DNA of 64,000 nt, from contig DASYVL010000040.1 in assembly GCA_035937135.1 (NCBI GenBank), positions 1 to 64,000 on the forward strand. Reading direction: 5' to 3'. Origin of the DNA: Terriglobales bacterium. Its GTDB lineage: Bacteria > Acidobacteriota > Terriglobia > Terriglobales > Acidobacteriaceae. Positions 21,854 through 49,459 of the stretch are shown in pieces (positions within the stretch are counted from its first letter, which is position 1; the number at the start of each line of letters is the position of its first letter). Below the pieces are notes generated by a model. That model did not search any database, was not told the DNA's origin, and saw only the letters and a program-made list of their open reading frames with translations. A program made the position numbers and the translations under genes.

Positions 21854-22444
21854 ATGGCGTTGGATTTGGAGGCTATCCGGGGGATTGCGGCGCGGGTGGC
21901 CGCCTCCTACAGCTTGGAGATTTGGGAGGTGGAGCTGCGCGGCACCGGCGGCAGGTCCCGGATGCTGCGGGTCTACATTGACCGGCCCAGTGGGGGAGTG
22001 GCCTCAAGCAGCGGGTCGGGGCAGGCGGACGGGACCCCGGCGGTCGGGGGCGTGACGCACGAGGATTGCGTCAACGTCAGCCGGGAGCTGGGGACGATCC
22101 TCGACGTCGAGGACGCGGTGCCCGGCGGGACGTACCTGCTGGAAGTGTCGTCGCCTGGCCTGGACCGGAAGCTGGCGAAGCCGGCGGATTTTGAGCGCTT
22201 CGTCGGCAGCCTGGTGAAGCTGATGACGCGGGAGCCGGTGAATGAGAACCGGCACTTCGAGGGTCGGTTGGAGCGGTTCGGCGAGGGCAGGCTGGTGCTG
22301 AGCCTGGAAGAGAAAAAGGAAAAGGGAAAAGGGAAGAAGAAGCGCGGGCGGGACGCCCGCGCGACAGCTGGCGAGACGCCGGCGCTACGAGTGGAGATTG
22401 AGTTGAGCAACGTGGAGCGGGCGCACTTGGTGCCGGAGATCTAA
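21854..22444 (+). CDS. rimP: Ribosome maturation factor RimP, with inserted repeat segment
   Basis: RimP assists 30S maturation. The N-terminal domain begins LDLEAIRGIAARVAASYSLEIWEVEL and holds VSRELGTILDVED ... YLLEVSSPGLDRKL (about residues 70-115), the family hallmark. The C-terminal SH3-like domain (FEGRLERF, VEIELSNVERAHLVPEI) is interrupted by about 25 residues, Lys/Gly-rich and then RGRDARATAGETPALR, encoded by a heptamer run plus a hairpin repeat. A Ser/Gly-rich insertion also lies near residue 55. Product 196 residues versus the usual 150-160. First gene of the nusA operon. Confidence 0.92.
   Translation: MALDLEAIRGIAARVAASYSLEIWEVELRGTGGRSRMLRVYIDRPSGGVASSSGSGQADGTPAVGGVTHEDCVNVSRELGTILDVEDAVPGGTYLLEVSSPGLDRKLAKPADFERFVGSLVKLMTREPVNENRHFEGRLERFGEGRLVLSLEEKKEKGKGKKKRGRDARATAGETPALRVEIELSNVERAHLVPEI
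22317..22391 (+). repeat. Spacer-type repeat cassette inside rimP
   Basis: Heptamers AGGAAAA, GGGAAAA, GGGAAGA are followed by a perfect 9-bp stem (GCGCGGGCG-GGA-CGCCCGCGC, 22342-22362) and a CTGGCGAGACGCCGGCG segment. All three parts have relatives in spacers of this window. The cassette keeps the rimP reading frame. Confidence 0.8.
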
Positions 22445-22447
22445 GAA

Positions 22448-22528
22448 GGGAAAAGGGCAAAGGGCAAAGGGAAAAGGGAAAAGAGTCAAAGGCAAAGGCC
22501 GCGGGCGAGGGCGCCCGCGCCACACAGG
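22448..22528. repeat. GGGAAAA heptamers plus GCGGGCG hairpin after rimP
   Basis: GGGAAAA, GGGCAAA twice and GGGAAAA twice (22448-22482), a degenerate GTCAAAG/GCAAAGG tail, then the hairpin GCGGGCG-AGGG-CGCCCGC with its CACACAGG flank (22501-22528). The order heptamers then hairpin repeats that seen inside rimP. Confidence 0.75.
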
Positions 22529-22606: not shown

Positions 22607-24325
22607 ATGGCGAGCTTGCTATACCAGACGATCGAGGGGCTGAGCCGCGAGAAGGGGATCGATCCCCAGATCGTGGTCAGCGCGGTGGAAGACGCCATGG
22701 TGGTGGCGACGCGGAAGTCTTTGAAGTCGGTGGAGAACCTGCGGGCGGAGCTGGACAAGGAGTCCGGCGCCATCTACGTGTACGCGGTGAAGTCGGTGGT
22801 GGAGACGCCGGAGCTGGTGGAAGACCCCAACCTGCAGATCCCGCTGGACGAAGCGCGCAAGACGGACGCCGCGGTGGAAGCCGGCGGCGAGGTGCGCTTC
22901 CTGCGCACCACGCACGAGATGTCGCGCCCGTCCGGGCTGGGACGGATCTCGGCGCAGCTGGCCAAGCAGGTGATCTTCCAGAAGGTGCGCGAGGCGGAGC
23001 GGGACACGGTTTACAACGAGTACATCGGGCGCGTGGGCGAGATCGTGAACGTCGCAGTGAAGCGCGTGGAAGGCCCGGACGTGATCTTCGAGCTGGGAAC
23101 GACGGAGGCGCGCATGCCGCGCAAGGAGCAGTCGCGGCTGGAGTCGTTCGCGGTGGGCGAGCGGGTGCGCGCGGTGATCGTGCGGGTGGAGAAGGCGAGC
23201 AAGGGCCCGGGAGTGATCGTCTCGCGGGCGGCGCCGGAGCTGGTGCAGAACCTGTTCCAGACGGAAGTGCCGGAGATCTATGACGGCACGGTGGTGATCC
23301 GCGCCATCGCGCGCGAGGCGGGCGAGCGCACCAAGATCGCGGTGATGTCCAAGGACAAGGACGTGGATTGTGTGGGCGCGTGCGTGGGCATGAAGGGCAT
23401 GCGGGTGCAGTCCATCATCCGCGAACTGCGCGGGGAAAAGATCGACATCATCGAGTTCAACGAGGAGCCGGTGACCTTCGCCCAGAAGGCGCTGCAGCCG
23501 GCCAAGGTGAGCCGCGTCTCCATCGTGGATGCGGCGGAGAAGCACCTGGAAGTGATTGTGGACGACACGCAGTTGTCCCTCGCCATCGGCAAGAAGGGGC
23601 AGAACGTGCGCCTGGCGGCGAAACTGCTGGGATGGAAGATCGACATCAAGAGCGAGGAAGAGAAGCGGCAGGAGGTGGAGCTGCAGATGTCGGCGCTGGT
23701 CTCACCACCCACCACGCCGCTGGAGAAAGTGGAGGACCTGAGCGGGGGGCTGATGGAGAAGCTGACCGCCGCGGGCGTGACCACGGTGGAGGCGCTGGCC
23801 GACATGACGCCGGAGCAGTTGGAGGCCATCCCGGGGATCGGGCCCAAGACGGTGGAAAAAATCACCGTGGCTGTGACAGACTTCTTCGCCAAACTCGAGG
23901 CGGCGCAGGCTGCTGAGGCGGCGGCGCAGGCAGAAGTGGCTGCGGCAGAGGCTGCAGTAGCGGAAGCAGCAGCAGCGGAAGCGGCTGCGGCGGAAGCGGC
24001 GGCGGAAGCAGCGACGGCGGAGGCATCGGCCCAGGCAGAAGCAGCGGCGGCGCCGGCCCAGGAATCAACGGAAACAGCGCCGGAGGCTGTGGCAGCAGAG
24101 GCTGCGCCGGCGAAGGAGCAAGCGGAAGCGACTCCCGAAGCTGCGGTGGCGGCTGAGGAACAAGTGAAGGCGGCTCCGGCTGCTGCGGTGGCGGCTGAGG
24201 AACAAGTGGAGGCGGTTCAGGATGCTGCGGTGGCGGAAGCAGCGCCGGCGGCAGAGCCGGAAGCGCCGGCTTCGTCAGATTCCGCGGGCTCCGAGGAGCC
24301 GGGCAAGGTTTCGGAAGAGTCGTAA
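22607..24325 (+). CDS. nusA: Transcription termination/antitermination factor NusA
   Basis: NusA binds RNA polymerase and modulates pausing, termination and antitermination. Domains in order: N-terminal polymerase-binding domain (1 to about 130), S1 (VNVAVKRVEGPDVIFELG region), two KH domains (with GACVGMKGMRVQSII and LAIGKKGQNVRLAAKL), then an HhH segment (LEAIPGIGPKTVEKI, about 405-420). From about residue 435 to 572 the tail is almost all Ala, Glu, Pro and Val and contains a 42-bp internal duplication. Such a tail is not part of the NusA core and is probably disordered. The start is preceded by heptamers with no clear Shine-Dalgarno site. Confidence 0.96.
   Translation: MASLLYQTIEGLSREKGIDPQIVVSAVEDAMVVATRKSLKSVENLRAELDKESGAIYVYAVKSVVETPELVEDPNLQIPLDEARKTDAAVEAGGEVRFLRTTHEMSRPSGLGRISAQLAKQVIFQKVREAERDTVYNEYIGRVGEIVNVAVKRVEGPDVIFELGTTEARMPRKEQSRLESFAVGERVRAVIVRVEKASKGPGVIVSRAAPELVQNLFQTEVPEIYDGTVVIRAIAREAGERTKIAVMSKDKDVDCVGACVGMKGMRVQSIIRELRGEKIDIIEFNEEPVTFAQKALQPAKVSRVSIVDAAEKHLEVIVDDTQLSLAIGKKGQNVRLAAKLLGWKIDIKSEEEKRQEVELQMSALVSPPTTPLEKVEDLSGGLMEKLTAAGVTTVEALADMTPEQLEAIPGIGPKTVEKITVAVTDFFAKLEAAQAAEAAAQAEVAAAEAAVAEAAAAEAAAAEAAAEAATAEASAQAEAAAAPAQESTETAPEAVAAEAAPAKEQAEATPEAAVAAEEQVKAAPAAAVAAEEQVEAVQDAAVAEAAPAAEPEAPASSDSAGSEEPGKVSEES
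24140..24208 (+). repeat. 42-bp period direct repeat in the nusA tail
   Basis: A 27-base word starting GCTGCGGTGGCGGCTG is repeated exactly at 24140-24166 and 24182-24208, giving two copies of AAVAAEEQV. It points to recent expansion of the low-complexity tail. Confidence 0.75.
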
Positions 24326-46638: not shown

Positions 46639-46960
46639 ACCCGGCACTTACGTGCCGGGCTACTATCTGGTCGTCCCTGGCGGGACTCGAGCCGCTTCCC
46701 CTTTGTCCGGCTGGTCGTCCCTGGCGGGACTCGGATTGCTTCCCCTTTGTGGCGGGCGCAGGCGCGGCCAAGCGAGGGCAGGATGCCCTAACGACACCCG
46801 GCAGGACGCTGGCACTACCCTCTGGAGCTACGTGCTTGCGCGGATGCGGCGGGCTTGCGCTGCGCGGCGCTCCGAGGATAGCCTATGTCCACGTGAGCAC
46901 CGTTGTGGGGACGGTGGAGTTGCCGGCGGGACGCCGGCGCTACCCTGAAAGAGTGGGGAT
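46639..46960. repeat. Spacer repeat cluster with a 44-bp tandem repeat
   Basis: CCCGGCACTTACGTGCCGGG hairpin (46640-46659); a 39-base word starting TGGTCGTCCCTGGCGGGACT at 46668-46706 and again, with few changes, at 46712-46750; GGCAGGATGCC and GGCAGGACGCTGGC segments (46784-46815); and a GCCGGCGGGACGCCGGC hairpin (46922-46938) like the cassette in rimP. The 478-bp gap 46540-47017 shows no convincing gene. Confidence 0.65.
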
Positions 46961-49219: not shown

Positions 49220-49420
49220 TCAGGATTCTTGGTCGCTTTTCGGGTATTTGGCGCAAACGTGGAATGCGAAGTCGCTGTCCCTCTGCAATTCAAAGTTTCG
49301 CAGAATCTCCTCCAGGGACTTGCCAGCTGGAACGCTGGGGGTCTGGAAGAGCCAGGCGCATTCGGAGCAGCCCCAACCAACGAGGTCCGGTTTTTCAATC
49401 CATACCAACTTACGGGGCAT
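49220..49420 (-). CDS. Small CXXC...HXC protein, probable zinc finger
   Basis: A 66-residue protein starting PRKLVWIEKPDLVGWGC with CSEC (residues 18-21) and HVC (54-56), i.e. a C-X2-C ... H-X-C set that could bind zinc, joined by a helix (SLEEILRNFELQRDSDFAFH). It resembles small conserved proteins I associate with Acidobacteriota, from memory. Function unknown; a DNA- or protein-binding role is possible. The frame also runs to a second ATG at 49459, where the first 13 codons are duplicated, so the protein may be 79 residues. No good ribosome binding site helps decide. Confidence 0.7.
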   Translation of the reverse strand: MPRKLVWIEKPDLVGWGCSECAWLFQTPSVPAGKSLEEILRNFELQRDSDFAFHVCAKYPKSDQES

Positions 49421-49459
49421 GAGGTCCGGTTTTTCAATCCATACCGACTTACGGGGCAT
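49382..49459. repeat. 39-bp tandem duplication at the small zinc-finger gene start
   Basis: Two adjacent 39-base units (49382-49420, 49421-49459) differ at one or two positions and code in frame for MPRK(L/S)VWIEKPDL. Each begins with its own ATG (minus strand). The second copy looks like a recent tandem duplication. Confidence 0.85.

Follow-up and report, generated by a model that had tools for sequence, protein, structure and literature searches.

A GTAG-type REP dimer in frame within rimP of a Terriglobales bacterium, and its likely transposase in related genomes

Why does a gene for a ribosome maturation factor encode, in one of its loops, a segment that resembles the repeats in the spacers around it? 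The gene is rimP of a Terriglobales bacterium, which lies in the window, the 64,000-nucleotide stretch analyzed here (positions 1 to 64,000 of contig DASYVL010000040.1, forward strand). A first-pass annotation had read the segment as a spacer repeat cassette that entered the gene in frame. We found that it is very likely an in-frame GTAG-type repetitive extragenic palindrome (REP) dimer, a nonautonomous mobile palindrome, inserted in an already variable K/R-rich loop of RimP. The gene and the element are laid out as follows, where R1 is a covariance model built from 11 aligned dimers, 10 from the window's own 2.2-Mb genome (G000) and 1 from the relative G001.

21854 to 22444, + strand: rimP, ribosome maturation factor RimP, 196 amino acids, host of the insert (PF02576 and PF17384 above cutoff; orthologue alignment).
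22343 to 22388, + strand: REP dimer, the inserted element, 46 nt, translated as RGRDARATAGETPALR (R1 score of 71.7 bits, E of 6.7e-13, partly a self-match because the rimP copy is among the R1 training sequences; family covariation).
22343 to 22361, + strand: left hairpin CGCGGGCG-GGA-CGCCCGCG, then CGACA (GTCG foot on the - strand) (RNA fold, structure count).
22367 to 22388, + strand: right hairpin GCTGGCG-AGA-CGCCGGC plus foot GCTAC (GTAG on the - strand) (RNA fold; hairpin search).

The full element at 22343 to 22388 reads CGCGGGCGGGACGCCCGCGCGACAGCTGGCGAGACGCCGGCGCTAC. Its left hairpin (22343 to 22361) has an 8-bp stem and its right hairpin (22367 to 22383) a 7-bp stem that includes a T-G pair, each with a 3-nt loop, and both fall within the format of a GTAG-type REP (a palindrome of 20 to 40 bp with a 6- to 9-bp stem and a 2- to 4-nt loop). 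Read on the opposite strand, the element is GTAG-CGCCGGCGTCTCGCCAGCT followed by GTCG-CGCGGGCGTCCCGCCCGCG, that is, two tandem palindromes with a GTNG foot on each. The right unit ends in GCTAC in 9 of the 11 aligned dimers, and the left unit mostly carries GTCG. Of the 46 positions of the rimP element, 45 agree with the family consensus, and the RNA fold of the element has an energy of -32.3 kcal/mol (z = -4.2). The units are arranged head to tail and not, as is usual but not defining for REP dimers, head to head or tail to tail. We concluded that the element is a GTAG-type REP dimer. The annotation had described a 9-bp hairpin plus a further segment; the hairpins are real, but they form one two-hairpin unit with stems of 8 and 7 bp.

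We found that the element belongs to a dispersed family, as the annotation had supposed. Searching with R1 gave 16 strong copies (matches at E < 1e-6) in G000. Among 100 genomes of the same family (Korobacteraceae-type, class Terriglobia), 40 carried the element and 14 carried at least 25 copies, with a maximum of at least 62. Pattern searches of G000 agreed with this: CTGGCGAGACGCCGG at up to 1 mismatch had 6 matches, and the right hairpin at up to 3 mismatches had 28, compared with 0 for each reversed control, while single-hairpin patterns had about 28 to 30 matches compared with 0 to 3. When named genomes were scanned for exact pattern matches, a Candidatus Korobacter versatilis metagenome-assembled genome gave a hit. 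In the 11 dimers, double changes occurred in 5 of 15 pairs and 95.8% of cells were paired; the corresponding shuffle values were 2.1 and 89.4%, and sliding the alignment as a control gave no double changes. The family is thus dispersed, with two hairpins whose stem changes are compensatory. Repeat status was decided by the full two-hairpin model alone; the short core GGCGRGACGCC at 1 mismatch showed no significant enrichment in the window, with 14 matches for 11.6 expected. Like other GTAG-type REPs, the copies are mostly intergenic: 126 of 134 copies in relatives were not called in-gene, and 10 of 16 in G000 lie outside recognized genes.

In rimP, the frame stays open across the element, which is translated as RimP residues 164 to 179 and encodes the right half of a loop in the C-terminal SH3 domain, LVLSLEEKKEKGKGKKK-RGRDARATAGETPALR-VEIELSNVERAHLVPEI. 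The annotation had named carriage of the segment by all close relatives as the sign of an old domain element; in an alignment of 29 same-family orthologues, none had the element, so that in RimP it is lineage specific. A variable, mostly K/R-rich loop was already present at the site in all 29. This loop spans 27 to 42 residues in the relatives and 40 in G000, which exceeds most relatives by about 8 to 13 residues and not by the roughly 25 first proposed. In an AlphaFold2 model made with 27 family sequences (mean predicted local distance difference test score, 82.6), residues 152 to 177 have no strand or helix and are mostly of low confidence (block means, 51 to 66), and the predicted strands at 146 to 151 and 178 to 183 are intact on both sides. 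In this model, the insert lengthens a hairpin-like loop in the SH3 domain, and the fold of RimP should be left intact, in line with the annotation's view of an open frame, undisturbed flanking strands, and a loop. The model has a second lineage-variable, low-confidence loop in the N-terminal domain (residues 44 to 66; window, 21983 to 22051; SGGVASSSGSGQADGTPAVGG). In the relative G079, a REP dimer (L023) lies just 3' of rimP, outside the gene.

RimP is not the only protein affected. Six of the 16 strong copies in G000 are in frame within five conserved genes, rimP, hemH, recN, tlyA, and murI, the last of which holds two inverted copies. Gene calls around copies were based on open frames, codon usage, and orthologues, and the identities of the host proteins were confirmed (RimP, ferrochelatase HemH, RecN, a TlyA-family methyltransferase, and glutamate racemase MurI). 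At the orthologous sites of HemH, TlyA, and MurI, the element was absent from all relatives, and at that of RecN the sole exception was G001. The loops that carry it span 33 residues in HemH (25 to 26 in most relatives), 46 in TlyA (28 to 45), 58 in MurI (40 to 61), and 36 in RecN (28 to 46). Judged by these spans, the insert replaces part of an already variable loop.

In the relatives, we applied a codon usage test to the 134 best-scoring copies, which are not a random sample. Eight were called in-gene, and seven were accepted after their frames were read. Five of these have Pfam support: RecN and a CoA-transferase (both in G001), a MoaD-MoaE fusion (G006), an ATP-dependent DNA ligase (G083), and UvrA (G048). 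The remaining accepted pair is one gene common to G006 and G081, which has no Pfam hit and was taken on its long conserved frame. The in-gene share was higher in G000 than in these best-scoring, nonrandom copies of the relatives (6 of 16 compared with 7 of 134; P = 6e-4). Our guess is that intergenic copies in G000 have decayed and that in-gene ones were held by the reading frame. Translations of the element give AGETPAL- or SAGVSPA-type strings, for which we found no match in the literature; where such strings occur in predicted proteins of this family, they are repeat derived and not protein motifs. The RGRDARATAGETPAL and SAGVSPA frames, which are also the ones read at the transposase ends described below, seemed strikingly preferred in G000 and G001, but this preference weakened once more relatives were added and is not significant (these two of the five open frames account for about 8 of 13). 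A TlyA loop in G018 with GCCCGCGGAGCGGGCGCTAC looked related by eye and was rejected when it failed the hairpin test (stems of at least 7 bp).

Y1 transposases are common in the family, and we found one linked to the element by matching the coordinates of transposase hits and element copies. In G007 (C21, L277:1513-2229), a dimer stands in frame at both the start and the end of the open frame of a REP-associated tyrosine transposase (RAYT), which reads ...RSAGVPPAVAGASRPR-F-GSVTIRDRG...MPNHVH...WTFWC-GQDAHTTAGETPAL. This frame passes NF047646 (REP_Tyr_transpos) with 87.7 bits against a cutoff of 80. Dimers in frame at both ends of the linked RAYT were also noted at L279 and L281. The HUH motif MPNHVH, expected of a RAYT, is present in G007, G081, G068, and G051. 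In the G001 copy (L281), the motif reads MPNHVP (HVP, not HVH), and the G001 RAYT may therefore be inactive. The dimer directly adjoins the transposase in 4 of the 5 closest loci (G007 itself included, with G081, G001, and G051) but in 0 of 25 more distant ones (Fisher P = 1.8e-4); in one of the latter, a weak match stands at a distance of about 1 kb. This RAYT occurs in five genomes, every one of which belongs to the 14 (of 100) that have at least 25 copies (P = 2.7e-5). The RAYT association that marks GTAG-type REPs is therefore present in G007, G081, G001, and G051 and not in G000. With the four further in-frame host genes, it bears out the annotation's proposal that these elements enter genes and move or copy. 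Among the ten best Pfam Y1 transposases of the relatives, none had the element beside it, and GTAG hairpins of other sequence were near some. Such hairpins near other Y1 transposases of the class (L136, L140, and L142) suggest further REP families.

These data fit a model in which a G007-type RAYT would have recognized, in single-stranded DNA, the hairpins with their GTNG feet, with the footed hairpin form GTAG-CGCCGGCGTCTCGCCGGC as its putative substrate, and would have copied the element around the genome. Genic insertions would have persisted only in disordered surface loops and only if they kept the frame open. According to this model, RAYT-driven spread in the G000 lineage would lie in the past, and the present copies are probably relics, because the only RAYT in the genome today is a distant one. 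The peptide added to RimP is probably neutral or nearly so.

Several observations weigh against an inserted mobile REP dimer in rimP. Movement in G000 is inferred, and no RAYT stands beside the element there: the only one is a distant C182 homologue (38% identity) with no element within 1.5 kb. The copy-rich genomes G009, G048, and G083 have no close RAYT of the G007 type. No target-site duplication, which together with terminal inverted repeats would mark a MITE, was demonstrated, the orthologue loop DNA being too diverged to set the insertion borders. Net growth in HemH, RecN, and RimP is below the 15 residues of the element, so that simple insertion needs an additional deletion or replacement of the old loop. 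Finally, the compared relatives belong to different genera, which leaves the insertion dates loose.

The RecN copies of G000 and G001 might also be one ancestral insertion, in which case in-gene copies may be old and vertically kept instead of recent jumps. We place this somewhat short of an even chance. Both copies lie in the loop between the ABC signature and Walker B, with the same position, orientation, and loop length (36 residues), and G006 and G081, which are of one genus, have another in-gene pair in common. In the tree, however, G000 groups with G025 (96% support) and G001 lies elsewhere; G025 and other relatives lack the element, and several losses would be needed. Thus, the RecN site took up the element on two occasions or repeated losses followed a single one, and a hot spot in the loop or transfer could account for the pair instead.

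A broader and more tentative idea is that certain loops of housekeeping proteins in this family (RecN signature-Walker B, HemH, and RimP) are recurrent landing pads filled independently across genera with unrelated spacer repeats, whether REP dimers, heptamer runs, or other palindromes. The same RecN loop in G025 (L115) holds a GAGAACT-type heptamer run whose period-7 identity was reached by 0 of 5,000 shuffles, and the HemH loop of G025 (L109) has, by eye, a different GC palindromic sequence in frame. Period-7 runs are also found inside rimP (G000 and G073), recN (G025), and the CoA-transferase gene (G001). As part of this idea, the design of the REP dimer may favor translation, as it forms both ends of its own transposase gene.

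The heptamers raise the question of whether they and the hairpins of rimP arrived together. Two runs and a single hairpin are close by:

22308 to 22335, + strand: heptamer tandem run of about 4 copies (AAGGGAA type) that encodes the first, K-rich half of the loop (Tandem Repeats Finder [TRF], period 7, 85%).
22446 to 22496, + strand: heptamer run AAGGGCA/AAGGGAA in the rimP-nusA spacer (TRF).
22500 to 22519, + strand: single left-type hairpin CGCGGGCG-AGGG-CGCCCGCG, 4-nt loop, GTGG foot, in the rimP-nusA spacer (sequence and hairpin search).

The run that the annotation had noticed in rimP is there, and its periodicity of 7 is real, exceeding what the encoded peptide requires (identity of 0.72 compared with 0.47 under synonymous recoding; P = 0.0004). 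The unit AAAGGGAAAAGGG has 14 matches in the window, compared with 0.05 expected. Joint entry of run and hairpins as one composite cassette from a spacer, as the annotation had it, would agree with the rimP-nusA spacer, which shows the same order, a heptamer run and then a hairpin. Mixed inserts do exist: the G001 CoA-transferase gene (L243) has an AGTACCG run closely followed by a REP dimer. Joint entry is nevertheless unlikely for rimP. In L021, the nearest RimP orthologue, the same loop has a significant period-7 run but no hairpins, and the HemH, TlyA, and RecN inserts of G000 have no heptamer run. Because of L021, the heptamer run is probably a separate and older layer than the hairpins.

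Retention for function, with hairpins acting in the rimP-nusA-infB mRNA (pausing or stability) or RimP using the peptide, appears improbable to us. In its favor are the very stable fold and the position of the copy, about 50 nt before the rimP stop codon and upstream of nusA and infB. Against this, the element is missing from all 29 RimP orthologues, it occurs in unrelated proteins in both orientations, and the loop sequence is unconserved. A reading of the loop as common coding sequence, GC rich, of low complexity, and variable among lineages, that resembles a spacer repeat by chance or base composition would suit the variable loop of all relatives and the unenriched core, but the genome-wide model search refuted it, given the score of the full 46-nt element, its consensus match, and its presence in frame in four other genes.

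We compared the REP dimer with known systems. Intragenic, in-frame GTAG REPs were described in 2013 (Di Nocera et al., PMC3733652), including in DNA repair genes. Those elements are alike in stems (6 to 9 bp), loops (2 to 3 nt), GTAG foot, and a dispersed, mostly intergenic distribution, with some copies in frame and entirely within open frames. DNA repair genes recur as targets (uvrA and DNA ligase there; RecN, UvrA, and an ATP-dependent DNA ligase here). The host here is in contrast a Korobacteraceae-type acidobacterium, for Koribacter the 2013 paper, as far as its text was available, gives only transposase genes of terminal inverted repeat type, and the usual dimers are head to head or tail to tail. 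Rickettsia palindromic elements (PMC10969869 and PMC3767692) likewise keep the frame of the unrelated housekeeping proteins that they enter, where they lie in exposed regions and possible hot spots, but they are about 100 to 150 bp long and rickettsial, and our 46-nt, GC-rich, acidobacterial element does not belong to them. REPtrons (Nunvar et al. 2010, PMC2817692) also pair an HUH tyrosine transposase (NF047646) with REPs at its ends; here the dimers are inside the transposase frame as N- and C-terminal residues, and G000 lacks such a unit. Heptanucleotide repeats (TAACTGA arrays, PMC4679880) resemble our period-7 spacer runs and can be read as 7-residue peptide repeats; the unit sequence differs, and runs here are also inside rimP, recN, and the CoA-transferase gene. 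We concluded that the element represents a new acidobacterial family, of a kind already known, with a likely transposase identified, and that its head-to-tail dimer and its overlap with the transposase ends are unusual.

Intragenic REPs have so far been catalogued in few lineages (Opitutus, Rickettsia, and some Proteobacteria). To these we add an acidobacterial family with its likely transposase, five decorated housekeeping proteins in a 2.2-Mb genome, and orthologues free of the element, which are concrete cases for how REPs spread, how the frame is kept, and whether loops gain sequence from mobile palindromes.

Two further matches are in the window:

46773 to 46818, + strand: degenerate intergenic copy of the REP dimer (R1 score of 37.9 bits, E of 3.3e-5).
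46922 to 46943, + strand: perfect right hairpin plus GCTAC, an intergenic singleton (0 mismatches).

The annotation had seen related copies just after rimP and at 46922. They are related, but both are single hairpins, left type at 22500 to 22519 and right type at 46922, and the match at 46773 to 46818 is a weak two-hairpin copy. Downstream of rimP, the window continues with nusA and then infB. The C-terminal tail of NusA is Ala/Glu rich and has 21- and 42-bp tandem repeats (window, 23899 to 24236). Two-copy tandem repeats at 46667 to 46750 (44 bp) and 49382 to 49459 (39 bp) are not evidently related to the REP dimer.
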